DNA from: Echinicola sp. 20G
Lineage (GTDB): Bacteria > Bacteroidota > Bacteroidia > Cytophagales > Cyclobacteriaceae
Direction of reading: 5' to 3'
NCBI RefSeq assembly: GCF_015533855.1
Contig: NZ_AP024154.1
Location: forward strand, 4,160,501 to 4,224,500
Length of the DNA stretch: 64,000 bases
Numbering within the stretch: position 1 is the stretch's first letter; every line of letters starts with the position of its first letter. The translations under genes and the position numbers were made by a program. Of the stretch, positions 11,293-63,130 are shown one piece after another. The notes beneath the pieces are model-generated. The model ran no database searches and was not told the origin of the DNA. It saw nothing but the letters and a program-made list of their open reading frames with translations.

Positions 11293-11871
11293 ATGGGTAT
11301 AGATAAAAAAGATAAAATATTTCCAGAGGGGATTAGGTCAAACTATTCTTCGTTGAAGGATTTATTCTATACCTACCATAAAAAGTTGGTCTACTATGCC
11401 ATGCAAATTGTTGGGGACCAATCATTGGCTGATGACCTTGTTCAAGAGGTTTTTATTCATGTATCACAATGGCCGGAATCACATTTTTTCAGAGAAGAGG
11501 ACCACATAAGGAATTATTTGTACAAGGCCGTAAAAAACCAGAGTATCAATGCTTTAAAGGATCTTAAAAAAAATGCTTCCAAAATGGAAGAGCTTGATCC
11601 CGAAGCTGTACAGGGGCCCACGGCTTTGCACCGTCTTATTCAGTCGGAAATTGTCAGTATGGTTTATGAAGCAATGAAAAGCCTTCCAGAGGGATGCAGG
11701 ACTGTGGCTGAACTGTCCTACCTTGAAGGCAAAAGCAATAAAGAAGTGGCCGATATTTTAGGTGTTACCGTTAATACTGTTAAAACTCAAAAGCAAAGGA
11801 GTCTGAAACTTCTTAAGCTACGGATTGATCCTGAGGTTTTTACCCTGTTTTTAATATTAATAAACTGTTAA
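11293..11871 (+). CDS. ECF RNA polymerase sigma factor (FecI-like), locus 1
   Basis: About 192 residues with sigma region 2 (LKDLFYTYHKKLVYYAMQ ... SLADDLVQEVF) and region 4 (LPEGCRTVAELSYLEG ... VNTVKTQKQRSLKLL). ATG 11293 (MGIDKKDK) is preferred to a TTG at 11281. It heads the order sigma, FecR, SusC, SusD, the standard Bacteroidota arrangement in which the receptor senses its ligand, FecR relays the signal across the inner membrane, and the freed sigma factor transcribes the susCD genes. Its direct targets are inferred from position. Confidence 0.92.
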   Translation: MGIDKKDKIFPEGIRSNYSSLKDLFYTYHKKLVYYAMQIVGDQSLADDLVQEVFIHVSQWPESHFFREEDHIRNYLYKAVKNQSINALKDLKKNASKMEELDPEAVQGPTALHRLIQSEIVSMVYEAMKSLPEGCRTVAELSYLEGKSNKEVADILGVTVNTVKTQKQRSLKLLKLRIDPEVFTLFLILINC

Positions 11872-48579: not shown

Positions 48580-48688
48580 GCTTTCAATATAGATTTTACT
48601 TTTGAATTTAGTTTTTCCTTTGACTAAAAAAGCCATAAATGCCCTTGACTGGGAGAAGTATGCAATTTCAACTTAGTACACTATCCTT

Positions 48689-49400
48689 GGAATTTGTAAT
48701 TCCCTTTTCTTGATTGTTTTTGTGAAAGAATAAATATAGGATAAGGTCATTTGACTAGCTTTTTTGCTAGCCGCCATGCTGAAAACATTTTCCATTGGCA
48801 CTTTTGGTCATTCTTTTGCATCGGCTTCCTGCTTTGGTGGTACCAGAACAGCGAACAGAAGTGGCCCTTGGTTGGGGCGATGATTTTGTTGCGTTGGCTT
48901 TAGTGGGAGTTGCATTATTTGTTTCACTTGTAGCTTTAGTTGGGATGTCAGCCTTATTACTCGTCACTACGGAAGTAGGCTTGCACACGCTGCAAGAAGT
49001 ATAATCTTTCTTTTTGGCCTCTGTTAGTTGGAGGCTTATTGAGCTATACTTTAAATATTTGCAAGAGGATTTATGGTATTTGGTGCCTGTCTTGGTTACA
49101 TATACCGTCTGGCCATATGTCTGGGCAAATGCAAAAAATAATGTAAGGTAGAGTAGGAGTAGGTGTTTTTTCATTAAAAGAAGTGTATTGGGAATATTGA
49201 ACTTTTCAAGATAGTGGTTTTGGAGGAGGTAAAAAATACCGTAAAAGGGGTATTTTATTTGTTTAACCTATTTCATAGTTTTAGTGGGTATGGTCAATTG
49301 TAAATGTTTACAAGTGTTTGATAAGCGTTTGAAATTAGTGGAGTGAGCCTCAAGTAACTTGGATTAGAGGATGTATTCGCTATGCATTTCTATGCTCGTT
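48689..49400. repeat. R1 repeat unit, copy A (contains the intact DUF5763-type gene)
   Basis: The unit begins with the palindrome GGAATTTGTAATTCC, runs through a leftward gene and its 5' region, and ends at CTCGTT (GTT at 49398-49400). Related copies are B (51433-52074), C (57563-58129) and D (60144-60774). The last 140 bp, from GTTTAAC at 49261 to CGTT at 49400, has the outer bases expected of an integron attC site (RYYYAAC ... GTT). Identity between copies ends exactly at CGTT. Confidence 0.8.
48767..49174 (-). CDS. Exported Cys-rich protein with DUF5763-type C-terminus
   Basis: A 135-residue protein. After a signal peptide (LLLLYLTLFFAFAQTYGQ) comes a small metal-binding-type domain, VYVTKTGTKYHKSSCKYL ... 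YTSCSVCKP, of the kind found at the end of some nucleases and Ada-like proteins. A Thr/Ala/Pro-rich linker of about 45 residues follows, then RCSGTTKAGSRCKRMTKSANGKCFQHGG, the DUF5763-type motif with four Cys and a His that probably bind zinc. It is the only intact one of four copies in the window, all inside R1 units and all leftward. The function is unknown. Confidence 0.75.
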   Translation of the reverse strand: MKKHLLLLYLTLFFAFAQTYGQTVYVTKTGTKYHKSSCKYLKYSSISLQLTEAKKKDYTSCSVCKPTSVVTSNKADIPTKATSETNNATPTKANATKSSPQPRATSVRCSGTTKAGSRCKRMTKSANGKCFQHGG

Positions 49401-49429
49401 ATTGGTAATGCAAAAAGGCATCGTACATA

Positions 49430-49819
49430 ATGACAGAGATTGAAAGAAATATTAACAAATACGCTCAAAATAAACTGAATGATTCCGAGATATTGGATTG
49501 GTTTAGCCAGTTTGATTTGTCAGGACAAAAAGAGATTCGTGATAAACTAATAATGTTTGTTTACCATGCTCATCCAAGTGACGATTTGATTTATAAAGCG
49601 ATTCAGACCGCACCGATTAAAGAGACTATGACACCTGTTGTGCTTTTCAAGACACAATCTTTCAAGATTGCAATAAATAGAATTTTAGAGTTGCCGGATT
49701 CTGAATTGAGAAAGTCTATCATTATATTGTTAAGTATTTTCAAAATGGCTGATACATATAGACGTGAAACAGAATGTAGAAATGGTTGTGGACATGAATG
49801 GCATAATATAAAAGACTAA
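49430..49819 (+). CDS. DUF5958-family protein
   Basis: A 129-residue small helical protein matching the DUF5958 pattern: NDSEILDWFSQFDLSGQKEI, AHPSDDLIYKAIQTAPIKETMTPVVLF and the C-terminal ECRNGCGHEWHN. No signal peptide is present. The conserved Cys/His tail suggests a metal site; no function is established. It begins 29 bp after the end of R1 copy A (CGTT at 49400) and so appears as the first gene of its cassette. Confidence 0.75.
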   Translation: MTEIERNINKYAQNKLNDSEILDWFSQFDLSGQKEIRDKLIMFVYHAHPSDDLIYKAIQTAPIKETMTPVVLFKTQSFKIAINRILELPDSELRKSIIILLSIFKMADTYRRETECRNGCGHEWHNIKD

Positions 49820-49873
49820 TGAATTCTGATTTGATAATAATAAAAGCAAAATTTAACCTTTAACGAACAGATA

Positions 49874-50023
49874 ATGGGAAGTGTCCAGGAAGCCTTCACT
49901 AAATCCTTGCAAAAGATTACCCCGACAATCGATTATCTAAAATCATATAAAGGTCTGTTTATTAAATATTTAACAAAGTGTTAAAATAATATTGTGTATA
50001 CACCAATGGCGTATATACAGACG
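49874..50023 (+). repeat. R2 repeat, copy 1: orphan C-terminal coding fragment plus palindrome
   Basis: An open frame of 36 codons (MGSVQEAFTKSLQKITPTID, ending at 49984) is followed by GTGTATAC, a 9-base spacer and GTATATAC, ending at ACG 50021-50023. Copy 2 lies at 52197-52332. The shared 31 codons align without gaps and stay similar as protein (EAFTK-LQKIT--IDYLK), as if both were 3' ends of one gene family. Identity ends at AGACG in both copies. Confidence 0.65.
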
Positions 50024-50060
50024 GTATAGAGCACTAGAACCCGCATAAAATATTAAAGCC

Positions 50061-50501
50061 ATGTTCGGAATTTTTAAAAAGAAGAAGGAACTTCCTCCAT
50101 TTAATGATCTAAGTAATTCACCTCTGAAAGACAAATACTTCATTAGAACCTCAAGATGGGATTGGTTGGACGAAACAATGATCCATGTTGTTGATAACAA
50201 TGCCCCTCGAATGATTACAATGGATCTATGGCCTCAACTTATCTATTTAGAGGCGAATGGCCAATCAACTATTTATGAATTTGTCTTCGAGATGGCTGAC
50301 AAATATGGTAGAGGTCAAGAAGTACCTGATGAGCTAGATGTAACTATCTTGGATATGATTAACAGCTTATTGAATGATCAACTAATACAACTTTTTGATT
50401 CTAAAAAAGAACTGCCTTATTATCTGGATAAACCTATAGCTGAACAAGATAAGGAGAAAGCTCATCAACTAATGGTTAAGGACGGATTCATAGAAGAATA
50501 G
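50061..50501 (+). CDS. PqqD-like protein
   Basis: A 146-residue cytoplasmic protein. The middle and end (IYLEANGQSTIYEFVFEMA ... VTILDMINSLLNDQLIQLF) match PqqD-type winged-helix domains, which hold a precursor peptide for a radical-SAM maturase. The N-terminal FGIFKKKKELPPFND is polar. No radical-SAM or peptide gene is adjacent, so it is either an orphan or a relative with another job. It is the only gene between the R2 palindrome and the attC-like palindrome at 50505. Confidence 0.6.
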   Translation: MFGIFKKKKELPPFNDLSNSPLKDKYFIRTSRWDWLDETMIHVVDNNAPRMITMDLWPQLIYLEANGQSTIYEFVFEMADKYGRGQEVPDELDVTILDMINSLLNDQLIQLFDSKKELPYYLDKPIAEQDKEKAHQLMVKDGFIEE

Positions 50502-50504
50502 GCG

Positions 50505-50665
50505 CTCTACAACATATGCTATGAATGGGGTTTTATCGGTCAGGATACTTTTGTGGGGATTGGAAAGTCCGCCACAAGTTTTGAATTTAAATCAAGGCGT
50601 GGCTATGTGCGAGATGAGAGGTTAGTGCTATCTAATCCCCACTCATCATAGCTAGGCGTTAGCTT
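50505..50665. repeat. attC-like imperfect palindrome after the PqqD-like gene
   Basis: The left arm AACATATGCTATGAATGGGG (50511 on) pairs with the right arm CCCCACTCATCATAGC plus TAGGCGTT, with GTT at 50658-50660. Outer AAC and GTT, an interior of about 100 bases and a position directly after a stop codon are features of integron attC sites. The right core GCGTTAGCT is close to GTTRRRY; the left core is degenerate. Confidence 0.55.
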
Positions 50666-50672
50666 TCATTAA

Positions 50673-51341
50673 ATGAAACAGATATTAATCATATTAAGCA
50701 TCTTGACTTTCACTTCTTGTGATTTCAAATCATCAGCAGACTACAAAGCTGAGGCAGAGAAATTAGAAAGTGAAGGGAGATATGAAGAAGCAATTCCTCT
50801 CTTAGATAAAGCGATTGAAAAAGACCCAGAGAATATTTATGCCTTAATCAACAGAGGTGTTGATAAATCAATATTGGAGGATTACGAAGGAGCAATTGAA
50901 GATTACAACAGAATAATTCAAATCGACTCAGATAATGCTCTTGCTTATCTAAACAGAGGAAAGAATAAAAAAAGACTTGAAGACTATCAGGGTGCTATTG
51001 ACGACTTTGAAAAGGCAATAAAAACTAAAGGTGGAGAATCCTTTTATATGGATAAAGTGGAAAACTCATTTATTGAAACGGGATTCGAATTTGATGTTGC
51101 TATGGAAGAAATTCGATTTGAACGAGGAATCGCCCGATATAATATTGATAGTCTAAGACTTGCTTTTGACGACTTCATCTTTTGCATCGATAAGAATTTT
51201 GAAAAACCTGCGAGTTTGTATTGGCGAGGAATAATTTATGTGGCTTATGGGATGAATCAAAAAGGGTGTTCTGACCTAAAAGAAGCTAATAAATTGGGAG
51301 ATCCAGATGCACAAGAAATGATTAATGAATACTGTAAATAA
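50673..51341 (+). CDS. TPR-repeat lipoprotein
   Basis: A 222-residue protein. The signal and lipobox MKQILIILSILTFTSC place it in the membrane. Three tetratricopeptide repeats follow (SEGRYEEAIPLLDKAIEKDP, ILEDYEGAIEDYNRIIQIDS, RLEDYQGAIDDFEKAIKT), then a further helical repeat-like end (ARYNIDSLRLAFDDFIFCID). TPRs bind proteins; no specific partner is evident. It is the first gene after the attC-like palindrome and is followed by R1 copy B. Confidence 0.85.
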   Translation: MKQILIILSILTFTSCDFKSSADYKAEAEKLESEGRYEEAIPLLDKAIEKDPENIYALINRGVDKSILEDYEGAIEDYNRIIQIDSDNALAYLNRGKNKKRLEDYQGAIDDFEKAIKTKGGESFYMDKVENSFIETGFEFDVAMEEIRFERGIARYNIDSLRLAFDDFIFCIDKNFEKPASLYWRGIIYVAYGMNQKGCSDLKEANKLGDPDAQEMINEYCK

Positions 51342-51432
51342 TAAAAAACGGAAAGCTAATAACTAAGCATTCTGACGGCTGGAACAGCCAAGCCTGACAA
51401 AGAGGGTAAACCCACTTCGCCTTAATATCGAG

Positions 51433-52074
51433 GGAATTTGTAATTCCCGTTTTTGGAATATTTTAATGAAGTGGCAAATAAAGGATAAAGATATTTTCCT
51501 ATCTATTTGCTATCCTACATGTTGGAAACATTTTCCATTGGCACTTTTGGTCATTCTTTTGCATCGGGTTCCAGACTTGGTGATGCCAGAACAGCGAATA
51601 GAAGTAGTCCTTAGTTGGGATGCCGGTCTTATTACTTGTCACTACCGAACTAGGCTTACACACATTACAAGCATGTAATCTTTCTTTTTGGCCTCTGTTA
51701 GGTGAAGACTTATCGAACTATACTTTAAATACTTGCAGGAGGATTCGTGGTATTTGGTGCCTGTCTTGGTCACATAAACCGTCTGACCATAAGCCTGTGC
51801 TAATGCAAAAAATAAAGTAAGGAAGAGTAGGAGTAGGTGTTTTTTCATTAAAAGAAGAGTATCAGGAATATTAAACTTTTCAAGATAGTGGTTTTGGAGT
51901 AGGTAAAAATTACCGTAAAACGGGTATTTTATTTGTTTAACCTATTTCATAGTTTTAGTGTATATGCTCAATTGTAAATGTTTACAAGTGTTTGATAAGC
52001 GTTTGAAATTAGTGGAGTGAGCTTCAAGTAACTTGGATTAGAGGATGTATTCGCTATGCATTTATATACTCGTT
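51433..52074. repeat. R1 repeat unit, copy B
   Basis: It starts GGAATTTGTAATTCC and ends CTCGTT (GTT 52072-52074). Its final 140 bp (GTTTAAC at 51935 to CGTT) have the same length as in copy A. Beyond CGTT the sequence equals that after copy C for about 80 bases (into the DUF1835 gene start) but is unrelated to that after A or D. Confidence 0.8.
51515..51848 (-). pseudogene. Broken DUF5763-type gene in R1 copy B
   Basis: The start is intact (MKKHLLLLFLTLFFALAQAYGQTVYVTKTGTKYH in two runs), but a one-base loss after KKDY shifts the frame before CSVC. Most of the linker is deleted. The C-terminal DUF5763 codons survive only in part near 51520-51600. It is a decayed copy of 48767-49174. Confidence 0.85.
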
Positions 52075-52095
52075 TTAGCACTTAAATAAAGAATC

Positions 52096-52248
52096 ATGGC
52101 ATCAGAGAGAATCCATATCGTTTTTGGAGAGTCTGCAAAAAGTGTTCTCCTTGCTCCGACTAGACGAAGTATGTCACTTCGCCGAAGTCCCAAAGGGAAG
52201 CCTTCACTAAACCCTTGCAAAAGATTACCTCGTCAATCGATTATTTAA
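52096..52248 (+). pseudogene. Truncated DUF1835 gene fused to R2 sequence
   Basis: The first 20 codons (MASERIHIVFGESAKSVLLA) equal the start of the intact DUF1835 gene at 58150. From 52156 the sequence diverges, and the frame runs out-of-register into R2 copy 2, stopping after 50 codons. It marks a recombination joint between the 5' end of one gene and the 3' end of another. Confidence 0.8.
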
Positions 52249-52332
52249 AAGCATATAAAGTATTGTTTAACAAATATTTAAATAACGCTTAAATAATATT
52301 GTGTATACACCAATAGCGTATATATAGACGTT
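52197..52332 (+). repeat. R2 repeat, copy 2
   Basis: It holds 31 codons (EAFTKPLQKITSSIDYLKAY ...) ending at TAA 52290-52292, then GTGTATAC ... GTATATAT and ACGTT (GTT 52330-52332). It matches R2 copy 1 up to AGACG and diverges after. Most nucleotide differences leave the amino acid unchanged or similar. Confidence 0.65.
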
Positions 52333-52375
52333 GTGCGTCAGCTAAAAAAAGACATTCACGATAAAAGAATAAAAT

Positions 52376-52969
52376 ATGAAAGCAGTTTTTACCACAATTT
52401 TCTGTTTTGTGCTGACTATTACAAGTTTTGCACAAAACAACACCGACACGACCGAGCATATGACATTTAAAGGAGTGCCTATTGACGGAACACTAAATGA
52501 ATATGTTTCTAAAATGAAACAAAGTGGATTCACTTTAATTGGTACAGAAGATGGTGCCGCAATGTTGAAAGGTGATTTTGCTGCTTACAAAGATTGTATT
52601 ATTGGAGTCGCTACTTTGAAAGGGAAAGACCTCGTTAGTAAAATAACAGTAATTTTCCCAAACCGTGAAACTTGGGCGACACTCTCCTCAAACTATTTTA
52701 ATCTAAAAGAACTTCTAACTGAGAAATATGGAGCGCCTTCAGAGGTTATTGAGAAATTTGACACTTATTCAGAACCCAAAGACGACAATGCAAAAATGCA
52801 TGAAGTTGGAATGAATGGATGTAAATATTATACAACTTTCGAATTAGAAAATGGAAGCATTCAAGTTTCAATTGGAAACGATAGTTTCTCCTCAAGCTTT
52901 GTAATGCTTTCATATTATGACAAAACAAATAGTGAGAAAATAAGACAAAAAGCAATTGACGACCTTTAA
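52376..52969 (+). CDS. Exported protein of unknown function
   Basis: A 197-residue protein with a signal peptide (MKAVFTTIFCFVLTITSFAQ). The mature part has FKGVPIDGTLNEYVSKMKQSGF, a pattern frequent in small Bacteroidota periplasmic proteins, and NLKELLTEKYGAPSEVIEKF. It has one internal Cys in KDCIIG and one in NGCKYY. No family or function can be named. It stands alone between R2 copy 2 and the attC-like palindrome at 52986. Confidence 0.75.
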   Translation: MKAVFTTIFCFVLTITSFAQNNTDTTEHMTFKGVPIDGTLNEYVSKMKQSGFTLIGTEDGAAMLKGDFAAYKDCIIGVATLKGKDLVSKITVIFPNRETWATLSSNYFNLKELLTEKYGAPSEVIEKFDTYSEPKDDNAKMHEVGMNGCKYYTTFELENGSIQVSIGNDSFSSSFVMLSYYDKTNSEKIRQKAIDDL

Positions 52970-52985
52970 AAAATAAAGCCGAACC

Positions 52986-53115
52986 CACAAAAACGCATAT
53001 AGCTTATGGCGGGTGAACGGCTGCCAGCAAGGTTTTCGCTCCATAGCCAGCTTAGGTTTCGGTAGAAAAGAAAGTGCTTCGAAATCACCACAAGCCATAT
53101 GCAAAACGTTGTGTT
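52986..53115. repeat. attC-like imperfect palindrome after the 52376 gene
   Basis: The left arm AACGCATATAGCTTATGG (52992 on) pairs with the right arm CCACAAGCCATATGC plus AAAACGTT, with GTT at 53108-53110. The distance from AAC to GTT is 119 bases. It begins 17 bp after the stop codon. The right end ACGTTGTG is the same as at 52328-52334, and ACGTTGT is also at 56736. Confidence 0.6.
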
Positions 53116-53136
53116 TAATTAAGAAAAACTAACAAA

Positions 53137-53784
53137 ATGATATTTAAACTTACAGGAGTAAATCAAGGTTCTAGTGGCACACGAATCTCAACAAGATGTC
53201 CTCATTGTGGTCATAATGGGACATTTGAATCAATAGGTAATGACATTCAAAACAATAATTCTAATCGAGTCTTTGGAATTAGAAGATGTCCTAATGAAAA
53301 GTGCTTTGGACATATGTTCTTTGTTTACGATAAAGGTCAAAAAAACATTGTTGTAACCCATCCCTCTGATACAATTCCCTTCGACAAGGAAAATATACCA
53401 GAAAATGTGTTAAACGCATTTCAAGAAGCAATACTGTCTCACTCGAATAATTGTTTTATCGCATCAGCAATAATGATAAGAAAAACATTAGAAGAAATAT
53501 GTATGGACAGAAATGCTACAGGTAATAATTTATACAAAAGGCTTGAAGATTTAGGTTCTAAGATTGTTATTCCTCAAGAACTTATAGAAGGTATGCAAGA
53601 ATTAAGATTGTTAGGGAATGATGCTGCTCATATTGAATCAAATACATTTGATGAAATTGGCAAGAACGAAGTTGAGATTTCAATTGAATTCACTAAAGAA
53701 ATTTTAAAGGCGGTATATCAGTATGAATCGTTGTTAGGAAAATTAAGAAGCTTAAAAAAAACAAAAGAGGAAGAAAATAACTAA
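53137..53784 (+). CDS. DUF4145-domain protein with zinc ribbon
   Basis: A 215-residue protein. A zinc-ribbon-like N-terminus shows CPHCGHNG and RRCPNEKCFG. The DUF4145 domain follows (FQEAILSHSNNCFIASAIMIRKTLEEIC ... LRLLGNDAAHI), a helical, HEPN-like domain often seen in restriction and defence-associated proteins. The HEPN-type RxxxxH signature is not strictly present; GNDAAH is the nearest. It may be a stand-alone defence or stress protein. It is 27 bp after the attC-like palindrome. Confidence 0.8.
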   Translation: MIFKLTGVNQGSSGTRISTRCPHCGHNGTFESIGNDIQNNNSNRVFGIRRCPNEKCFGHMFFVYDKGQKNIVVTHPSDTIPFDKENIPENVLNAFQEAILSHSNNCFIASAIMIRKTLEEICMDRNATGNNLYKRLEDLGSKIVIPQELIEGMQELRLLGNDAAHIESNTFDEIGKNEVEISIEFTKEILKAVYQYESLLGKLRSLKKTKEEENN

Positions 53785-54272
53785 ATACAATAACTAACCA
53801 TAGTATTGCCGGAACGGCCGAACCCTCCAATGGCGGGCAGGCATGAGTGCAGTGTTGAACGAGTGGTGCTGGGAAACGGGTAATTATGGGGAAAGCTTTT
53901 CCCCTTTAGTGTCTTTGAAGGTTTGAGCTTAAAAAATCTGATACCTGAGCGGCGTTTTTTTCTGCTGTTTGGTGGTATTTAGGTTTTTCTTTTTAGGCTT
54001 TGGGACAGCTTACGGGCTATTTTTTGGTTCTTGGGCATAGCCTTCCCCTTACACCGTTTGGTGTACCGACTGTAGTTTTCTGATTTTGTTAACCCAAAAG
54101 ACTAGTGGCCCCCCTTTGGTCGAAATCACCTGGATACATTAAGGATATTCCAAACGTTTTTGTACATAAAAAATGTAATGGTCAATTATCTTCTTGTATA
54201 TAGTAAATGATATATCTCTAAGGTCAAAATTTCGTTATAGTAAATCATTTGTAATAATATCCATTATATAAA
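53785..54272. other. Gene-free stretch between DUF4145 and AraC genes
   Basis: It starts with AACTAACCATAGTATTGCCGG, which looks like the left arm of another attC-like site with no matching right arm. The palindrome GGGGAAAGCTTTTCCCC is at 53888-53904. The rest has no recognised gene, only short open frames. Confidence 0.4.
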
Positions 54273-55043
54273 ATGAATTTTCTAATACTCTGGAAAGACT
54301 TGCGGTTGTTCATCGGTAAGAACCCTAAACCAACCAAAGGGCATAGCCATCCGATCATCCAGCTAGTGGTAGCCACGTCTGGAAAATTTAGGACTAAAAA
54401 CAAGTACACGAACGAATGGATTTTTGAAAAAGGATTGTTGATCAAATCAAATGTAGGTCACCAGTGTGATGCCACCAATATTCCAATCCTTAGTTTGGAT
54501 ATAGAGCCTGACTCAGCATTGGGCGGATGGGTAAATTCTAAAATCTTAAAAAGTGAAGATATCATTTCTTATCCCTCGGATTTATTTGGGCAGATTGATT
54601 TTGAGTTGTTGAAAGACTATCTACATAATAAAAATTGGGTTGCCGTGCGATCCATGCTTGAAGCTATTTTCCAGTTTGGCCATAAATATGAACACCAGAA
54701 GAAGGATGAGCGAATTTCGGACGTATTAAATTATATCCACAGAAACATACATTCACTCCTCACCACAAAAGAACTTTCAGAAATTGCCTTTCTAAGTGAA
54801 AGTCGGTTGCTTCACCTGTTTAAAGTTGAAGTTGGGTTGCCGATCAGGAACTACATTTTATGGTATCGCTTAAAGGTAGCTTTTGAGCAGTATATTGGTG
54901 GCCACTCTATGACGGAGGCATCTCACACTGCAGGTTTTTCAGACCAATCCCATTTTACCCGAACTAGCCTCAAAATGATAGGCGTTACTCCTTCCACCAT
55001 ACTTAAGAATAGCAAATTCATTCAAGTTTCCTTCTTAGATTAA
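54273..55043 (+). CDS. AraC-family transcriptional regulator
   Basis: A 256-residue protein. The N-terminal half is a cupin-like sensing domain (HSHPIIQLVVATSGKFRT). The C-terminal half is a double helix-turn-helix of AraC type (TTKELSEIAFLSESRLLHLFK and MTEASHTAGFSDQSHFTR). The oxidoreductase gene starts 32 bp downstream, so it probably regulates that gene and itself. It is an ordinary AraC-plus-enzyme pair within the cassette region. Confidence 0.88.
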   Translation: MNFLILWKDLRLFIGKNPKPTKGHSHPIIQLVVATSGKFRTKNKYTNEWIFEKGLLIKSNVGHQCDATNIPILSLDIEPDSALGGWVNSKILKSEDIISYPSDLFGQIDFELLKDYLHNKNWVAVRSMLEAIFQFGHKYEHQKKDERISDVLNYIHRNIHSLLTTKELSEIAFLSESRLLHLFKVEVGLPIRNYILWYRLKVAFEQYIGGHSMTEASHTAGFSDQSHFTRTSLKMIGVTPSTILKNSKFIQVSFLD

Positions 55044-55075
55044 TTCCAGTTTTGTATCAAACATTAAATGATACA

Positions 55076-56068
55076 ATGATGAAGTACAAAAGTGTGGTTT
55101 TAACTAAGAGAGGTGGACCTGAGGTTCTCCAGGTTGAGGAGAAAACACTGAGATCTCCTCAAAATAAAGAAGTACAAATATCTATTAAAGCATGCGGTGT
55201 GGGTAGAACCGATGTTGCCATGCGATATGGATATTATCCGTTTGCCCCAAAGATTCCGTTTGTGCCTGGCTACGAAATTGTCGGGGAAATAACAGCCATA
55301 GGTTCGGAAGTTTCTCAATTCAAGACAGGAGACTTAGTTGCTGCGCTTACTGTATATGGAGGGTACTCTGAGTTCATCATCCTGAAAGAGGAAGACCTGA
55401 TCTCTGTTCCAAAAGATATAGCGCCAGAAAAGGCCGTATCCATAATTCTCAATTATTGCACAGCCTACCAGATCTTGTTTAGAACTTTGAAAGTAAAAAA
55501 GGGAGATTCTGTTTTGATAACTGGAGCAAGCGGGGGGGTGGGGTCAGCACTCATTGATATCGGTAAACATATAGAATTAAAAATGTTCGGTCTTTCATCT
55601 TTAAAAAAGCAAGATAGGCTTATCGAGCAGGGTGTAATTCCAATCGACTACAACTCCAAGACTTGGACGGATAAATTATCTGAGTTCCAGCCTGAAGGGC
55701 TTGATTTTGTAATAGACGGAATTGGTGGAAAGTATATTGACCAAGGTTTCAAAGTCTTAAAACCAAGGGGTATACTTGCTGAGTATGGATACCCTAATTT
55801 CTTGGGAATGATCACAGGAATCATAAAGATTAACATTCGCAATCTCATTCCAAACTCAAAGAAGGGAGCTTTTTATGGGATTTCTGCTAACTATAAGAAG
55901 AATAAAAAGTTAATCCATGAAGATCTGATAAGGTTGTTTGAAATGCTTCAAAGTGGAAAGATCAATCCAGTTATCAGTCATAAATTCCATGTTTTGGAGG
56001 CACAATCGGCAAACAAAAAACTTGAGGAAGGAAACGTCATTGGTAAAATTGTTCTTGTGAATGATTGA
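55076..56068 (+). CDS. Medium-chain dehydrogenase/reductase (quinone oxidoreductase-like)
   Basis: About 330 residues from ATG 55076 (MMKYKSVVLTKRGGPEVLQV); a second Met follows at once. The GroES-like N-terminal domain is followed by a Rossmann domain with VLITGASGGVGSALIDIG. The zinc ligands of alcohol dehydrogenases are absent, so it belongs to the zinc-free NADPH quinone oxidoreductase or enoyl-reductase branch. It likely reduces a quinone or an alpha,beta-unsaturated carbonyl. It lies in one operon with the AraC regulator. Confidence 0.87.
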   Translation: MMKYKSVVLTKRGGPEVLQVEEKTLRSPQNKEVQISIKACGVGRTDVAMRYGYYPFAPKIPFVPGYEIVGEITAIGSEVSQFKTGDLVAALTVYGGYSEFIILKEEDLISVPKDIAPEKAVSIILNYCTAYQILFRTLKVKKGDSVLITGASGGVGSALIDIGKHIELKMFGLSSLKKQDRLIEQGVIPIDYNSKTWTDKLSEFQPEGLDFVIDGIGGKYIDQGFKVLKPRGILAEYGYPNFLGMITGIIKINIRNLIPNSKKGAFYGISANYKKNKKLIHEDLIRLFEMLQSGKINPVISHKFHVLEAQSANKKLEEGNVIGKIVLVND

Positions 56069-57005
56069 GCTATGACCCTAACTAAAGCCAATAATGGCTT
56101 ATATTACAAAGGGTGGACAGTTTTTTCGAAAGTTTGGTGTTTCCAGCAAGCTATGTCTAAGTGGATTAGAAGGCAGCTCAGAAATGCCCCTGTATGGGTG
56201 AAGAAGTATTCTTCACCCATATATCCTGGGAATTTGCAATTCTATTTTGCCCAAAAAATAGTAATCTTTAGAACAGGCAATGCTAAAGAGGGCCGTCATG
56301 GTGGTAATGTCTAGGGAACAGCCTGTAGATATGATGGTTTTGGTGTGGAAAGGACAGGGGCTGTCCTTCAAACTGGCTACTCGCTAATTCCGATAGCTCG
56401 GAACTACCGACTGTTTTCTTTACGCTCGCCCCCCTATGGATGCTCCGAAGCCTACTAGAGGTATAGTAGAGGATACGTAGACTTTTGGCTAAAATCTTAG
56501 AAAAAATGGTATTTTTTGAAGAGGGTTTTATTGGGCAATGTCTAGGGATTGTTAGGACTTTATATTGTGGCTTTTGGAGGAGGAAAGGGGAGGGGCATGG
56601 GGCCAAGCGAGCTAAAAATATTTGGTGAGCAAAACCGCGGACTTCTATCAATGCCTGATAAATCCCGTAGGTAAAATACTAACCTTTAGTACCTGAAATG
56701 AGCGTGCTTATACTCCTTATATGCCATTTGCAAGAACGTTGTTTATATTACAACCTTTTGGAATTGTTGACGTGTTATTTAGTTAAATAGCTGTAAATAA
56801 CAAACACGGGAAAAAGGGTTATTTTTTCATCAGACGTTGATGGAGGACTTTTATTGTTTTCAGAGCGCAATAACCATGGTAAAAGGTTTTTCTAGGGAAC
56901 TTCTGTACACGATAATTTGGATTACAAAAATAGTTTTAAAACATAAATAGAGGCTAGAAAAACACTTTTGAAATAAAAATTAGATAAACCAAAATTAATA
57001 ACTGA
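56069..57005. other. Gene-poor stretch with R1 and attC-like fragments
   Basis: About 940 bp without a convincing gene. At 56192-56242 a hairpin (GGGTGAAG with CTTCACCC) precedes GGAATTTGCAATTCT, the same beginning as the R1 units, but the rest of R1 is absent. At 56715-56745 TATATGCCATTTGCAAG plus AACGTTGT matches the right end of the palindrome at 52986. A 122-codon leftward frame at 56283-56651 has no family likeness and is probably accidental. Confidence 0.45.
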
Positions 57006-57395
57006 ATGAAAAATAGAAAAGGCAATTTTGGAGAAACAGTGAATTCATCCATAAGTAAATTTATTTTTATAATATTTCTTTTGATTTCTACACTATCCTG
57101 TACACCAGTTCAGTATGGATTTGATGCAAGGGAGAATAGCAAATTTTCAACATTTGATAATTTAGGGGTTTCTAAAGAAGATTTTATAAAAGAATATGGC
57201 TTTCCAACAAATAAGGGGATGTATCAAGAAGCATCAGTCACAAAAGTTGAAAAATTATACTACACAGAAAAAGTTAAAGATTTTTTAGTTACCACAAGAT
57301 TTATTTTTGTAAACGATATTCTAGAGCAAATGGAAAGGGTGGAAACAATAAATAATTTTACTGACACCCGAGGACAAGTAGAAAGGACACGATAA
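57006..57395 (+). CDS. Small lipoprotein of unknown function
   Basis: A 129-residue protein. The N-terminus FIFIIFLLISTLSC is a lipoprotein signal, with a longer charged head than usual (MKNRKGNFGETVNSS); an internal start is not available before the signal. The mature part reads FGVSKEDFIKEYGFP-like (LGVSKEDFIKEYG) and is small and basic. No family is recognised. It lies just before a REP-like half element and R1 copy C. Confidence 0.65.
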   Translation: MKNRKGNFGETVNSSISKFIFIIFLLISTLSCTPVQYGFDARENSKFSTFDNLGVSKEDFIKEYGFPTNKGMYQEASVTKVEKLYYTEKVKDFLVTTRFIFVNDILEQMERVETINNFTDTRGQVERTR

Positions 57396-57463
57396 GGAAG
57401 GACTGCAATTGGATAACATTTGATCTCTCAACTGGGTAGGACAACAGGGGTAATTGTTTATTG

Positions 57464-57506
57464 GAGATGAGATTGCTTCTCCCGGCCCACCGGGATCGCA
57501 ATGACG
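57464..57506. repeat. Half copy of the REP-like element
   Basis: GAGATGAGATTGCTTCTCCC followed by GATCGCAATGACG matches the right half of the REP-like elements at 38798 and 44279. It shows that this family extends into the AT-rich region. Confidence 0.55.
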
Positions 57507-57562
57507 CTTATGGGTGGCTTCCCCCGACTGGGTGAAGAATGCTTTTTCACTCAAATATCCTT

Positions 57563-58129
57563 GGAATTTGCAATTCCTGTTCCCTGATTGTTTTAATAAA
57601 GGATTAGGCCATGGTATTACCTATTCGCTACCCACCATGTTTGAAACATTTTCCATTGGCACTTTTGGTCATTCTTTTACATCTACTTCCTGCCTTGGTG
57701 GTACCGGAACATCAAGCAGAAGAAGCCGCCCTGGGTTGGGGAGATGGTTTTGTGGTGTTAGCTATTTGGCGGAGTTATGTTATTAGTTTCACTTTCAGCC
57801 TTGGTTGAGGAGTCTGTCTTGGTTACATATACCGTCTGGCCATATGCCTGGGCTAATGCAATAAATAAAGTAAGAGTAGGTGTTTTAAGTAAGTATTTTT
57901 TCATTCAGATAGACTTATTGGGGCTATAAACTTTTAAAGATAGATGTTTTGAAGTAGGTGATAATTATTCTATGTAGGGTGTTTCATTTGTTTTTCCTAT
58001 TTATTAGTTTTAGTGGATATGTTCAATTGTCAATGTTTACAAGTGTTAGATAAGCGTTTGAAATTAGTGGAGTGAGCTTCAAGTAACTTGGATTAGAGGG
58101 TGTATTCGCTATGCATTTATATACTCGTT
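57563..58129. repeat. R1 repeat unit, copy C
   Basis: It starts GGAATTTGCAATTCC and ends CTCGTT (GTT 58127-58129). The last 140 bp (57990 on) keep the exact length seen in A and B, although the left core is degraded (GTTTTTC). It is followed by the intact DUF1835 gene. Confidence 0.75.
57628..57905 (-). pseudogene. Broken DUF5763-type gene in R1 copy C
   Basis: The signal-peptide codons and a piece of the VYVTKT segment remain, but the Cys domain between them and the linker is deleted. The C-terminal DUF5763 codons survive near 57635-57720 without an open frame through the gene. It is a decayed copy of 48767-49174. Confidence 0.8.
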
Positions 58130-58149
58130 TTAGCACTTAAATAAGAATC

Positions 58150-58965
58150 ATGGCATCAGAGAGAATCCATATCGTTTTTGGAGAATCTGCTAAAAGCATT
58201 CTCCTTGCTAGTAATGAGATGTCAGAGCTTATCGATTCTGTAGTTAGTCTAAATGATGACTTGAGGCTTGGTCCAATAACCAATTTGGAGAAATCAGACT
58301 CCAGGTTCAGAAGACAGGATTGGTTAACTAGCACTTTGCCATGCCAAGAAGATGCGGAATATTTAAGTTCCAACGTTGCCGGAGACTTTGAAAAGATTCA
58401 AAACATAAGGGAAGAATTAAAGAATAAACCAGAAATATTTATTTGGTCCGGAAGGGCAACACTTGATAGGCTAGCTACAGCTAGATTAGTCTATGAGCTA
58501 CGTGATTTTTATACTCATCTTATAATTACCGATCTCCCAAACATTAAAATAAAATCGAAATTTGGCCATAGTTATGTTCCAGATTCTTTAGTGGTTATGC
58601 ATCCTGAAGATGTTCATTTACTTAGTAAGTATTTTAGAAAAATTACCAAAGAAGAATGCGAAGAGTGGACAAGCATGTGGATACGACTTGCTAATGAAAA
58701 TGGATTAGTAAGAGCTGCACAAACAATGGGAGAGATTGAATCAAAAGAGGTGGTTTATTTTGACGAAATACTACTATCAAAATGCACTGAAAATTTTTTA
58801 AAGGCTGCAAGAGTTGTTGGTGAAACTTTAGTTGACATAGGATTTGAAGCTAGTGATAAAACGCTTAATTGGCGTCTAATCCATCTAGCAAAAATTAAAG
58901 AATTAAATTTTGAAGGAAAATTAAATTGTCTTAGAGAGTATAAAGTAAAACGTACTAAAAAATAG
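58150..58965 (+). CDS. DUF1835-domain protein
   Basis: A 271-residue protein. The N-terminal DUF1835 domain reads IHIVFGESAKSILLASNEM ... VVSLNDDLRLGPIT, and a DUF3658-like C-terminal part follows (WTSMWIRLANENGLVRA). Such proteins are widespread and unexplained. No signal peptide is seen. The first 20 codons and upstream DNA are duplicated at 52096, after R1 copy B. It begins 21 bp after the end of R1 copy C. Confidence 0.82.
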   Translation: MASERIHIVFGESAKSILLASNEMSELIDSVVSLNDDLRLGPITNLEKSDSRFRRQDWLTSTLPCQEDAEYLSSNVAGDFEKIQNIREELKNKPEIFIWSGRATLDRLATARLVYELRDFYTHLIITDLPNIKIKSKFGHSYVPDSLVVMHPEDVHLLSKYFRKITKEECEEWTSMWIRLANENGLVRAAQTMGEIESKEVVYFDEILLSKCTENFLKAARVVGETLVDIGFEASDKTLNWRLIHLAKIKELNFEGKLNCLREYKVKRTKK

Positions 58966-58978
58966 TTTAAGCTGCTTT

Positions 58979-59004
58979 CTAATGCAGTTTAGACTGAGCA
59001 TTAG
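58979..59004 (+). terminator. Hairpin after the DUF1835 gene
   Basis: CTAATGC and GCATTAG form a 7-bp stem around a 12-base loop, 14 bp after the stop codon. It is a weak terminator candidate. Confidence 0.45.
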
Positions 59005-59040
59005 CAATAATTAAGAATATTAATCAATAAATTTTATATT

Positions 59041-60087
59041 ATGTCTTTATCAAAAACTTTTCCTTTTTTATTTCTTACTCTACTATTTTACCCCCTCCAA
59101 AAATCAAATGCTTGTACAAGGTTTGTCTATTGCGGTAAAGATCATCTGGTCTTTACCGCTCGATCTATGGATTGGTTTGAAGATGTACATAGTGATTTAT
59201 GGTTCTATCCGAGAGGAATGAAAAAAGACGGTGGGGTAGGAAAAGGCTCAATACATTGGATTTCTAAATATGCAAGTGTAACGGTTTCAGGTTATGATAT
59301 AGGAACTGTTGATGGATTAAATGAAAAAGGACTAGTGGCCAATCTATTATATTTATCAGAAACTGATTTTGGAAATTCTGGAGATAAACCTGGTTTATCT
59401 GTCGGTGCTTGGGCTCAATTTGTCCTAGATAATTATGCTACTGTAGACGAGGCTATTGAAAATTTGAAGACGGAACCATTTAGGATAATTGCTAGTACAC
59501 TTCCAAGTGGCCATGCACCAGGTCTTCATCTTTCATTATCAGACAAAACAGGTAATTCTGGAATATTAGAGTATATCAATGGAAAATTGATCATTCATAA
59601 GGGAAAGGAACATGCTGTAATGACAAATTCTCCTACTTATGACCAACAAATAGCATTAAATGCTTATTGGGAAAATATAGGTGGAATGAAAATGTTACCT
59701 GGCACTAACAGAGCCAGCGATAGATATGTTCGAGCATCATTTTACAGTAAAGCTCTTCCTGAATTTGAAGATAACCGTTTAGCCGTTTCAGCTACTTTCA
59801 GTGTAATTCGAAACGTATCTGTTCCGCTAGGAATTACTGACCCCGACCAACCTAATATTGCTTCTACTATTTGGAGAAGTGTTTCTGACCATAAGAATTT
59901 AATATACTTTTATGAATCGGCCATTTCACCAAATACTTTTTGGGTTGATTTAAAAAAGTTTGATTTTTCAACAACCAAAGTGCCAAAGAAAATTGATTTG
60001 GATGGCCATCCAATTTTAACAGGTGAGGTATCTGATAAATTTGTTGAAGCCAAGCCTTTCAAATGGTTAGCACCAGGTAAAAATTAA
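59041..60087 (+). CDS. Linear amide C-N hydrolase (choloylglycine hydrolase family), exported
   Basis: A 348-residue Ntn-hydrolase. The signal peptide (FPFLFLTLLFYPLQKSNA) ends just before Cys25, which becomes the N-terminal nucleophile. The family residues Arg41 and Asp44 are in FTARSMDW, and the Asn motif is in GLNEKGLVANLLYL. The family includes penicillin V acylases, bile-salt hydrolases and N-acyl homoserine lactone acylases. An export signal points to an extracellular or periplasmic amide substrate. A quorum-quenching role is possible but not shown. It is 75 bp after the DUF1835 gene. Confidence 0.88.
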   Translation: MSLSKTFPFLFLTLLFYPLQKSNACTRFVYCGKDHLVFTARSMDWFEDVHSDLWFYPRGMKKDGGVGKGSIHWISKYASVTVSGYDIGTVDGLNEKGLVANLLYLSETDFGNSGDKPGLSVGAWAQFVLDNYATVDEAIENLKTEPFRIIASTLPSGHAPGLHLSLSDKTGNSGILEYINGKLIIHKGKEHAVMTNSPTYDQQIALNAYWENIGGMKMLPGTNRASDRYVRASFYSKALPEFEDNRLAVSATFSVIRNVSVPLGITDPDQPNIASTIWRSVSDHKNLIYFYESAISPNTFWVDLKKFDFSTTKVPKKIDLDGHPILTGEVSDKFVEAKPFKWLAPGKN

Positions 60088-60143
60088 AATTCAAAATAAC
60101 TATTGCACCCTAGGCTAAGTATGCCACATCGCCTTAGTATCAA

Positions 60144-60774
60144 GGAATTTGTAATTCTCGTTTCGTATTGTATTGCTAAAATGATGAATAACCGATATTA
60201 TCATTTTATTATATATTTTACACTCCATGCTGAAAATATCAGACGTTGACGCTTTTGGTCATTCTTTTACATCGGCATCCTGCCTTGGTGGTGCCAGAAC
60301 AGCGAATGGAAGTAACCCATGGTTGGAGAGATGATTTTGTGGTGCTGCCTTTTGACGGAGTAACTTTACTTGTTTCAATAGCGGTTTTAGCGGGTAGACT
60401 GGTCTTATTACTCGTCACTTCTGAACTAGGCTTGCGCATACTACAAGCGGTATAATCTTTCTTTTTGGCATCTGTTAGTTGGAGGCTTCTTGAACTATAC
60501 TTTAAATACTTGCAGGAGGATTTATGGTATTTGGTGCCTGACTTGGTTATATAAACCGTCTTACCATATGCCTGGGTAAATGCAATAAATTTAGTGAGGT
60601 AGAGTAGGAGTAGGTGTATTGAAGTAGGTGATAATTATCCCAAATGGGGTGTTTTATTTATTTCACCTATTTCTTAGTTTTCATGTAAATGTTTAGAAGA
60701 GTTTGAAATTAGGTAAATGAGCTTCAAGTAACTTGGATTAGAGAGTGTATACGCAATGCGTTTATATGCTCGTT
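60144..60774. repeat. R1 repeat unit, copy D
   Basis: It starts GGAATTTGTAATTCT and ends CTCGTT (GTT 60772-60774). The final attC-like part is 114 bp instead of 140 owing to an internal deletion. The left core reads ATTTCAC. Different genes follow it than follow A to C. Confidence 0.75.
60228..60617 (-). pseudogene. Broken DUF5763-type gene in R1 copy D
   Basis: It is nearly full length, with the YHKSSCKYL-like segment and DUF5763 cysteines recognisable, but the start codon region is deleted (the first codons of MKKHLL are missing) and the 3' end is altered. It is a decayed copy of 48767-49174. Confidence 0.8.
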
Positions 60775-60830
60775 TATATTATAAATACCATAACTCAGCT
60801 TCAAAGCCATTTATTATTAACTTTGCAAAA

Positions 60831-61208
60831 GTGAAAGAAAGACTGGAAATAAAAAAAATCATTTCAATTCTGTCCGTATTTGGATTGGCATTTTTGCTTT
60901 TGCTTTCACCTTGTAAGGTTCGGAATATTATTCAAGCCGAATTAGGAATTCCCCAAACAAAAGTTCTAAACAAGAGTCAATCTACAATTTCCCAATCAGA
61001 TTGCCAGAATTTTGAGGTTTCTGAAACCGTTCAGGATATTTCAAAACCAACTTTTCAGCTATCAGACTTTCTAATATCCGATGCTTTTAGTTTTGATTTT
61101 ACAATCTATTTACTCAAGCATTCTTTCAACCTTAATGCATCAAGAAGCCAACAAGCCACTGGTGTTCCACTGTATATTCTATATCAGAACCTCAAGGTTT
61201 ATTTGTAA
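60831..61208 (+). CDS. Small membrane-anchored protein of unknown function
   Basis: About 125 residues from GTG 60831 (reads VKERLEIKKIIS); a frame upstream to 60756 runs through the end of R1 copy D and is unlikely to be the start. One hydrophobic segment is visible (IISILSVFGLAFLLLLSPC) with the phrase CKVRNIIQAELGIPQT, followed by a polar tail. No function is known. It lies just before the DoxX gene and is likely in its operon. Confidence 0.6.
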   Translation: MKERLEIKKIISILSVFGLAFLLLLSPCKVRNIIQAELGIPQTKVLNKSQSTISQSDCQNFEVSETVQDISKPTFQLSDFLISDAFSFDFTIYLLKHSFNLNASRSQQATGVPLYILYQNLKVYL

Positions 61209-61277
61209 TTGATTTTCTAAACAAGAAAACTCAAAGCAGTTGCTATTACTGCTATTTATCATTTACAAATATTACTA

Positions 61278-61688
61278 ATGAAATTTCAAGAAAAAACACT
61301 TGAAGTTAGCTACAGGTCTGTAGTTATTCTTCGTATTATGCTAAGCCTGATTTTTATTGTGGCGAGCACCAGTCATTTTTTTAATACCGAAAAAACCGTG
61401 AGCAGGATAGAAAATGCCTCTCTGGGTTTTATTGGGCATATTCTTGGCACACCCGAAACAGCTGTGATTCTATCAGGTGTGGTCATGTTAATTGCTGGTG
61501 TTTCGTTACTTATAGGCTTTAAAACCCGAATCGCTGCAATAATGTTAATTGCAGTTCTAATTCCTATTACGCTAACCATACAAGTTGGACAAATGACAAC
61601 TTTAGGCCCGCTTTTTAAGAATGTTGCCATACTTGGCGGACTTCTTTTTTTCAGTATTAATTCAAATCTAAAAACTCAAAAACAATGA
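61278..61688 (+). CDS. DoxX-family membrane protein
   Basis: A 136-residue protein with four transmembrane helices typical of DoxX/MauE: ILRIMLSLIFIVASTSHF, ILSGVVMLIAGVSLLIGF, IAAIMLIAVLIPITLTI and VAILGGLLFFSI. Such proteins accompany sulfur and quinone redox enzymes. Its stop overlaps the start of the DsrE-like gene by 4 bases, so the two are translationally coupled. It is part of a four-gene unit with DoxDA. Confidence 0.87.
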   Translation: MKFQEKTLEVSYRSVVILRIMLSLIFIVASTSHFFNTEKTVSRIENASLGFIGHILGTPETAVILSGVVMLIAGVSLLIGFKTRIAAIMLIAVLIPITLTIQVGQMTTLGPLFKNVAILGGLLFFSINSNLKTQKQ

Positions 61689-62107
61689 GAAATCCAATCA
61701 TATATATAACAACAATGTTCCTTTTATTATTTGGAACAATCCAATTACATGCACAAGAGATTAATCCAAAAAAGAATAATTATCTAGTGCTTTCTAAAAA
61801 CATACAACAACTTAAATCTGTTCTGCTTACCGCAAATGCATTAGCAAAAGAAGACGCGAGAAGATATGGAGAGTTTTATGTAATCATTTGTGGTAAAACA
61901 GTTAATGAGATAGCAGATAATCCGGATTTTAATGAATTGTTGGAAAAAGCAAAAGCTCAAAATGTAAAAGTTATTGTTTGTGGAATTTCACTTTCAAAAT
62001 TTAACATAAATCCAGAATCCTTGCCAGGTAATCTTGAAATAACACCCAATGGTATTTTATACGGTTTTCAACTTCTTAAGAAAGATTTTATCACTCTTAC
62101 AATCTAA
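61685..62107 (+). CDS. DsrE-like sulfur-relay family protein, exported
   Basis: A 140-residue protein with a signal peptide (YITTMFLLLFGTIQLHAQ). The mature part is a DsrE/DsrF/TusD-like fold: NYLVLSKNIQQLKSVLLTANAL ... FYVIICGKTVNEIADNPDF ... KVIVCGISL. In the family a Cys near the VxxCG loop carries persulfide; here Cys residues lie in IICGK and IVCGI. An exported DsrE-like protein beside DoxX and DoxDA suggests periplasmic sulfane sulfur handling. Confidence 0.83.
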   Translation: MRNPIIYITTMFLLLFGTIQLHAQEINPKKNNYLVLSKNIQQLKSVLLTANALAKEDARRYGEFYVIICGKTVNEIADNPDFNELLEKAKAQNVKVIVCGISLSKFNINPESLPGNLEITPNGILYGFQLLKKDFITLTI

Positions 62108-62113
62108 TAAACT

Positions 62114-63130
62114 ATGAAGAATGTAAGTTTAAAAAATGATGCAGGGCTTCTGGCACTCGCATTAAGGTTAGTAGTAGGTTGGACCTATTTTTCGGCATTT
62201 TGGAGAAGAACTGTATTAGCAGATAAACTTGACCCTGAAGTAGCGGGTTATATTGGTGAAAAATTTAATGCCTTTTTACCTAACGCCTTGGGTATAAAAC
62301 CCATCATACAATACTTGGTGGAAAATCCAGATGTACTTTGGGTTAACATGGTGATTTTCATGGTTGTTGAGGGTATTGTAGGTTTATTTATTATGTTCGG
62401 TTTGTTCACTAGATTAATGAGCATTGGTGTTTTTGGCTTGGCTATGGGAATCCTTTTAGGCTCTGGTTGGATTGGCACAACTTGCCTTGACGAATGGCAA
62501 ATAGGAATTCTAGGAATCGCCACAGGTTTTCTTATATTCTTAACAGGCAGTGGGAAATACTCCTTGGACAATTATCTAATAAAAAACAATTTTGTAATTA
62601 CTAAAAAGAAATGGTTTGCTTGGCTGGGTTCAGGTATTTTGCCAATAAAAGAAAAGGTTTTTCCAAAAGTTGTTTTAATAGGTTCTCTATTTGTTTTAGG
62701 AGTGACTTTAATGACAAACCAAATATTTCACGGCGGCGTATGGGGACCACTCCATAATAAATCGGTAAAGCCAAAATTGGAAATTACAGATGGAAAAATC
62801 AGCGAAAAGAGATTAAGTTTTGATGTTTATAGGACTGAAGGCGTGGATGTTTATGGTTCTTGGGTGATAGGAATTGAATTGTATGACAACAAAAACAACA
62901 CAATTATTGAATATACCCAAGAAGATTTAGCTACCATGGATAAAGAGAGTATCATAAACTATTATGTTTCTAAAATTAAACCAGGTAAGCACAGTTTAAT
63001 TGTTCCATTAGGGGCAAAAGCAAAGCTAAATTTGGATAATGAAGCTTTATCAAGTTTGTCTAAAGGGACATATACGGTTAAAATCACAGACATTAGTGGC
63101 ACTTATTGGGAACATCAATTTAAAAAATAA
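62114..63130 (+). CDS. DoxDA-like protein (thiosulfate:quinone oxidoreductase subunits fused)
   Basis: A 338-residue protein. The N-terminal about 170 residues are a DoxD-type membrane domain (ALALRLVVGWTYFSAFW, MVIFMVVEGIVGLFIMFGLF, VFGLAMGILLGSGWIG, ILGIATGFLIFL). A further helix at about 193 (VVLIGSLFVLGVTLM) leads into a DoxA-like beta-rich domain (KPKLEITDGKISEKRLSFDVYR ... TYTVKITDISGTYWEHQF). In Acidianus, DoxD and DoxA form thiosulfate:quinone oxidoreductase; Bacteroidota have fused versions of unproven activity. It is 6 bp after the DsrE-like gene and ends the operon at a terminator. Confidence 0.85.
   Translation: MKNVSLKNDAGLLALALRLVVGWTYFSAFWRRTVLADKLDPEVAGYIGEKFNAFLPNALGIKPIIQYLVENPDVLWVNMVIFMVVEGIVGLFIMFGLFTRLMSIGVFGLAMGILLGSGWIGTTCLDEWQIGILGIATGFLIFLTGSGKYSLDNYLIKNNFVITKKKWFAWLGSGILPIKEKVFPKVVLIGSLFVLGVTLMTNQIFHGGVWGPLHNKSVKPKLEITDGKISEKRLSFDVYRTEGVDVYGSWVIGIELYDNKNNTIIEYTQEDLATMDKESIINYYVSKIKPGKHSLIVPLGAKAKLNLDNEALSSLSKGTYTVKITDISGTYWEHQFKK

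Follow-up and report, generated by a model that had tools for sequence, protein, structure and literature searches.

Gene cassettes resembling those of integrons were analysed in a 64,000-nucleotide stretch of Echinicola sp. 20G (contig NZ_AP024154.1, positions 4,160,501 to 4,224,500), which is called the window here and is numbered from its first letter. It is highly probable, on sequence evidence, that the window holds a degenerate row of integron-like cassettes without an integrase, clearest between 50.0 and 53.8 kb, and that this row is a decayed outpost of an integron-like system of the Bacteroidota. Related arrays occur in many bacteria of the same phylum. Most cassettes of the window are decayed, and their mobility may have been lost. 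A first-pass annotation of the window had proposed an integron cassette array or a mechanistically similar system. The second half of that proposal stands, as paired cores, an attC-like site, attI-like ends, G^TT junctions and two integrase loci elsewhere in the genome were found; the first half is disfavoured, and these integrases are not of the IntI type. The genome search for intI that it had recommended likewise returned two candidate integrases with attI and cassettes, neither of them IntI. The region thus appears to work like an integron while failing the test of IntI membership, and its recombinase is probably of another kind.

Cassettes and attC-like sites of the window

An integron cassette opens with bases that can pair with those preceding its own site, and this premise was used to test four successive cassettes chosen by eye (starts at 50023, 50658, 52330 and 53108, all on the + strand). 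In each of the four the opening core is complementary to the 3' end of the same cassette; the true pairing ranked first of 24 pairings, and 0 of 20,000 random sets scored as high in each of two nulls. Cassette W1 (50023..50513) carries a gene at 50061-50501 without a Pfam match, starts with GGTATAGAGC and has the 3' core GCTCTACAAC. Cassette W2 (50658..51360) carries a TPR-protein gene at 50673-51341 between the start GTTAGCTTTC and the 3' core GAAAGCTAAT. Cassette W3 (52330..52991; gene 52376-52969, no Pfam match) starts with GTTGTGCGTC and has an imperfect 3' core, and cassette W4 (53108..53791; DUF4145 gene 53137-53784) has the start GTTGTGTTTA and the 3' core TAAATACAAT.

The sites that follow the cassettes were searched for with a covariance model built from 26 sites, five of them from the same genome and none from the window. 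The modelled site is a hairpin of 17 pairs, all 17 of which show double changes in some sequence, and 88.2% of cells pair; its covariation was 0.692, compared with 0.181 after shuffling and at most 0.117 when slid. Like attC, it is a folded palindrome with a covarying stem. The model has 21 matches at E <= 10 in the genome, 14 of them below 1e-5. The best in the window is the site of W3 at 52982..53117 (+ strand, 79.4 bits, E 4.3e-16), which ranks third in the genome; the site of W1 (AAC...GGCGTT, 50511..50660, + strand) gave a weak match at 50504-50667 (13.2 bits, E 0.28). What may be the left halves of broken attC-like sites were seen by eye after W2 (51358..51400, + strand) and after W4 (53789..53830, + strand).

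The first-pass annotation had drawn attention to palindromes at 50511-50660 and 52992-53110 and to ACGTT ends near 52330 and 56738, all of which are present. A scan for AAC...GTT palindromes on the + strand of 45-64 kb returned 33, 22, 14 and 6 matches at scores 9, 10, 11 and 12, and ten shuffles each returned 22-41, 10-23, 4-14 and 1-8. As these counts lie within the range of the shuffles, palindromes alone are weak evidence. Beyond chance in the window are the core pairing of the four cassettes and the model match at 52982-53117.

Elsewhere in the row, short one-gene pieces, all on the + strand, are found between and after the repeats described below. The piece after repeat R1-A (49399..49860) holds a DUF5958 gene (49430-49819), and the truncated start of a DUF1835 cassette lies at 52073..52155. 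A possible attC-like site with halves about 600 bp apart (56091..56740, junction ACG^TT after 56738) was read by eye and is tentative, being supported by neither the palindrome scan nor the covariance model; a gene at 57006-57395 comes after it. The piece at 58128..59003 contains an intact DUF1835/DUF3658 gene (58150-58965) and a short hairpin, tentatively a site. By eye, no matched core was seen in the pieces that follow R1-A, position 56738 and R1-C.

Integrases of the genome and arrays in relatives

As the first-pass annotation had noted, the window has no integrase: none of the 12 TIGR02249 matches listed for the genome at E <= 1e-3 falls inside it. The genome (5.79 Mb, single contig) encodes two intact integrases: integrase 1, of 462 aa, lies at C1:1421165-1422553 and integrase 2, of 372 aa, at C1:4715243-4716361. 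An integrase remnant of 90 aa is present at 1564545. The first core, GTTGGGCAC, lies 65 bp after integrase 1; its partner GTGCCCAAC stands before a short attC-like site, and more paired-core sites follow. After integrase 2 the first core, GTTACCACAC, lies 82 bp on and is followed by a gene, GTGTGGTAAC and an attC-like site. Both loci, which lie outside the window, thus combine an integrase, an adjoining attI, a cassette and attC.

Named relatives of the genome's integrase were found in Algoriphagus, Belliella and Aquiflexum. Two catalytic motifs are separated by 64 and 69 residues in the genome's own two integrases, by 64-69 in 18 array-associated proteins and by 106-107 in 13 IntI-type proteins, the I2 insertion of IntI (about 42 residues) being missing from the array-associated integrases. 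Integrases 1 and 2 fall below the TIGR02249 cutoff and pass the cutoff of NF040815 (XerA_Arch / integron integrase; 220 bits) with 227.4 and 229.7 bits. In a tree of 59 rows, 28 of them unlabelled, the labelled array-associated and IntI groups stood on opposite sides of a branch with 100/100 support. An alignment of 11 relatives shows no variation in the usual catalytic residues, and in sequence the solved structures nearest to these integrases are XerC-like, XerA and IntI4. The N-terminal part of integrase 1 is predicted to form two similar beta-alpha repeats. Of five relatives of integrase 1 that were scanned for the HARP domain (PF07443), three exceed the Pfam cutoff (25 bits); integrase 1 itself stays below it (13.6 bits). 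There is also a weak match to PDB 4o66. The N-terminal region may help the recombinase to handle a folded strand.

Three side observations concern these recombinases. In a congener (G047), a second recombinase gene (269 aa, L069 about 10950-11800) lies directly after the integrase-2 relative. Among the loci L144, L133 and L131, three paired-core links, spread over both sides, lie close to a Peregrinibacteria recombinase that lacks the insertion, and relatives from Marinilabiliaceae reach 675 aa.

A relative of integrase 2 was found at E <= 1e-40 in 40 of 60 genomes of the family, and 51 of the 60 have at least one attC-like site at E <= 1e-5 under stricter filters. Among 17 loci examined, 10 have at least two paired-core links on a strand, with maxima of 18 (L083) and 15 (L080); shuffles gave 0-1 links at these two loci and up to 4 at some others. 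A few links skip a site where neighbours share a core, and some low-scoring ones look accidental. At least four links were present at 10 of the 80 loci kept from a scan of named genomes, and at eight of the ten the sites lie downstream of the integrase and are co-directional with it (Rufibacter, Flavobacterium enshiense, Algibacter, Seonamhaeicola, F. aciduliphilum, a Flavobacteriaceae isolate, and the Sphingobacteriales and GWF2_41_31 metagenome-assembled genomes). Winogradskyella (6 links; shuffles 4 and 1) and another metagenome-assembled genome of Flavobacteriaceae (4 links; shuffles 2 and 1) are near chance. In Vibrio atypicus, the IntI control, the sites lie upstream of the integrase and face away.

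Ninety-nine cassettes were collected from 18 loci, and in 90 of them the longest open reading frame is on the strand of the site. Every cassette starts with GTTR (99/99), and the canonical R' core GTTRRRY on which the first-pass annotation had relied fits 12 of the 99, a few links joining non-adjacent sites with the same core. Cassettes of mostly one gene plus a site, with complementary ends and a single direction, are found in the relatives and in degenerate form in the window. In the relative G028 the cassette next to the integrase, 1,050 bp long, has a second copy 11 kb further on that is 100% identical from GTT to GTT and differs in both flanks, and a 574-bp cassette recurs likewise at 100% identity. 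When a congener was compared with the present genome, the flank and the integrase gene were common to both; similarity was lost after the integrase and resumed about 4 kb on.

Two further observations were made on these arrays. At the 18 array loci the complementarity of cassette starts and 3' ends breaks off at position 7 or 8 (position 8 matches in 0 of 103) and returns at positions 9-10 (0.88 and 0.82); most of the mismatches place A opposite G or T. Copies of one insertion sequence, presumably of the IS110 family, lie at L009 13150-14817 and 15749-17392 and at L069 18191-19859 (and 15632-17228); three of four compared copies start roughly 10 bases past the GTT of an attC-like site, as if targeting such sites.

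At E <= 1e-5 the covariance model found 57 sites in F. enshiense, 19 in Algibacter, none in Rufibacter and none in three genomes with an IntI-type integrase. Among 130 oriented sites, 125 have an A on the left arm of the stem opposite a C on the right arm, and on the bottom strand this A/C mismatch is a T/G wobble. The predicted bottom-strand hairpin was the more stable in 98 of 129 sites, less stable in 28 and equal in 3; as sites within an array are related, the corresponding p value (5e-12) is too small. For 144 random pieces the split was 74 to 65. The A/C mismatch is thus predicted to favour folding of the bottom strand. Unpaired extra bases inside the stems were as frequent on the left (37) as on the right (37), a distribution that departs from the extra-helical bases on the R''-L'' arm of attC.

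R1 and R2 repeats and their attI-like ends

Two repeat families interrupt the row. R1 occurs in the window on the + strand as copy A (48682..49400, attI-like site at about 49371-49400, junction G^TT after 49398), copy B (51426..52074, junction after 52072), copy C (57556..58129, junction after 58127) and copy D (60137..60774, junction after 60772), all with attI-like ends, of which that of D is the best preserved and an exact pattern match. Copies E, F and G sit at 5.35 Mb, and there is a more distant copy, H. R1-A includes a gene on the - strand (48767-49174) for a small secreted protein, DUF5763-like below the cutoff, together with its upstream region; in R1-B this gene is shortened (51642-51848, - strand). 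R2 copy 1 (49888..50023, + strand) has an attI-like end at whose junction cassette W1 begins, and R2 copy 2 (52196..52330, + strand) has one with a G^TT junction after 52330.

The attI of integrase 1 ends in ATATAAACGCAATGCGTTTATTCACTCG^TT. In a shuffle test that counted R1 copies A and D-H, the ends of D, E, F, G and H aligned with this attI better than 1000 of 1000 shuffles, and that of A was beaten or equalled by 1 of 1000 only; the ends of B and C align with other R1 ends. The remnant integrase at 1.56 Mb also has an end similar to the integrase-1 attI. For R2, 0 and 4 of 2000 shuffles were as good as the alignments of the ends with R1-D, and 16 and 6 of 2000 were as good as their weaker alignments with the integrase-1 attI (R2 copy 2: 0 and 16). 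Since the R1 ends mostly resemble the integrase-1 attI, R1 and R2 look like dispersed insertion platforms, attI-like and distant from any integrase.

The four R1 units of the window end in CTCGTT (49400, 52074, 58129 and 60774), just as the first-pass annotation had read them. Its statement that identity stops there in all four was wrong. B and C continue into the same DUF1835 gene start (94% identity over 67 nt, with 58143-58209 as the counterpart in C), as do E, F and G, and only A, D and H change; the five copies of R2 are followed by five different sequences. The cores it had placed 140 bp before CTCGTT in A, B and C exist (GTTTAAC in A and B, GTTTTTC in C), and the stretch between forms no attC palindrome. 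R1 as a cassette ending in attC was accordingly rejected, its end resembling the integrase-1 attI. R2 as the right half of an attC was also rejected, no left half being seen and its end aligning with R1-D. The idea that the CTCGTT boundary is a by-product of a duplicated gene pair was dropped once the integrase-1 attI proved similar.

Other repeats were noted around GGAATTTGTAATTCC at 56187, 57521 and 63322 and at 48682, 51426, 57556 and 63357, some with a preceding GGGTGAAGAA...TTCACCC hairpin. The gene block after R1-D (60756-63130) recurs almost unchanged, in reverse orientation, next to the R1 cluster at 5.35 Mb (L066 1454-3834).

Mechanism, alternatives and known systems

An intact system of this kind has a tyrosine recombinase without the IntI insertion, placed just upstream of an attI and co-directional with the cassettes. 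Each cassette (median 667 bp) usually comprises one gene and a hairpin-forming site, starting with GTTR and a variable core whose reverse complement stands before its AAC. In the proposed reaction the bottom strand of the site would fold, and the recombinase would connect the folded site at G^TT with attI or with a second site; free circular cassettes would arise. The attI-like ends of R1 and R2 in the window may act, or have acted, as landing platforms in trans, probably for integrase 1.

Several observations weigh against an integron-like system. The simple scan of the window for palindromes yields counts close to chance, and the covariance model gives the window one strong and one weak match, to be set beside the at least two close attC sites without an integrase that make a CALIN. 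The model match after R1 copy H has a non-matching core, and for integrase 2 and G028 no dispersed attI copies turned up. The presence of an integrase is only weakly linked to the number of sites in the 60 family genomes (median 11.5 sites with an integrase-2 relative, n=40, against 4 without, n=20; one-sided p 0.025). Rufibacter, an array by core pairing, has no covariance-model match, and 51 of the 80 named loci have no paired sites, many being non-Bacteroidota or having short sequence after the integrase. Recombination itself is deduced from sequence and none was observed.

It is very improbable that there is no cassette system and that duplicated R1 and R2, neighbouring genes and repetitive palindromes were merely shuffled by homologous recombination. 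Such shuffling would suit the multi-copy R1 and R2, a region rich in other repeats and the near-chance palindrome counts, but it leaves unexplained the matched cores at both cassette ends, the covariation, the attI and array beside the integrases and the GTT-to-GTT duplications. GTT/AAC triplets, G^TT junctions, an attI by the integrase and one-direction gene cassettes would all be expected of a canonical integron remnant, an attC cluster lacking IntI with IntI elsewhere; we give this just as little credence, as both candidate integrases lack the insertion and fall below the TIGR02249 cutoff, few cores are GTTRRRY, and the three genomes with an IntI-type integrase yielded no site-model match at E <= 1e-5.

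A more serious alternative, although an unlikely one, is that the recombinase acts on double-stranded DNA like Xer and that the palindromes are only terminators or binding arms. The catalytic part is closest to XerA/XerC-like proteins and IntI4, the I2 insertion is absent, and the attI-like sites often contain an inverted repeat. However, the bases after G^TT differ between neighbours and match within a cassette, so a second strand exchange would be hindered, and a Xer-like reaction has no need of hairpin covariation or of a strand bias in stability. Somewhat less doubtful, and still tentative, is the proposal that recombination of cassettes through single-strand hairpins arose in the Bacteroidota independently of IntI. 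An I2-less recombinase would pick the bottom strand through the A/C mismatch (T/G on the bottom strand) by means of its N-terminal HARP/XPB-like region, and attI would have been copied onto the dispersed R1 and R2 as extra platforms in trans.

The I2 helix and single-strand recombination have been held exclusive to integron integrases (PMC7790495), and IntegronFinder 2.0 reported one complete integron in Bacteroidetes, that of Salinibacter ruber, and others in Chlorobi and Ignavibacteriae (PMC9024848). Such Bacteroidota arrays were not found described in the titles and abstract starts of the open literature, a search that left preprints and most subscription papers outside. If the arrays are active, hairpin cassette recombination would not require I2, a considerable reservoir of cassettes (at least one site in 51 of 60 family genomes; 57 sites in F. 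enshiense) would lie outside those integron surveys, and the evolution of single-strand recombination becomes testable with natural enzymes.

The Bacteroidota arrays resemble integrons and superintegrons in their one-direction cassettes, GTT/AAC boxes, complementary cassette ends, attI beside the integrase, G^TT junction and hairpin sites. They differ in that the integrase lacks the I2 insertion, belongs to a separate recombinase clade and reads towards the array, the cores are rarely GTTRRRY, and the sites carry an A/C mismatch and not a left-biased extra base. Judged by the published description, Treponema integrons, reported as intI-type, share the co-directional integrase and cassettes (PMC3607928). 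XerA/XerC-like recombinases (NF040815) are alike in the catalytic part, to which the Bacteroidota integrases add an N-terminal region and cassette arrays. The HARP domain, known from SMARCAL1, is shared with some integrase-1 relatives, the Bacteroidota recombinases being without the helicase part. Delta-attI cassettes, which are attI copies away from the integrase among the resistance cassettes of mobile integrons, offer a likeness to the dispersed attI-like ends described here, which differ in lying on the R1 and R2 repeats (PMC12901181).

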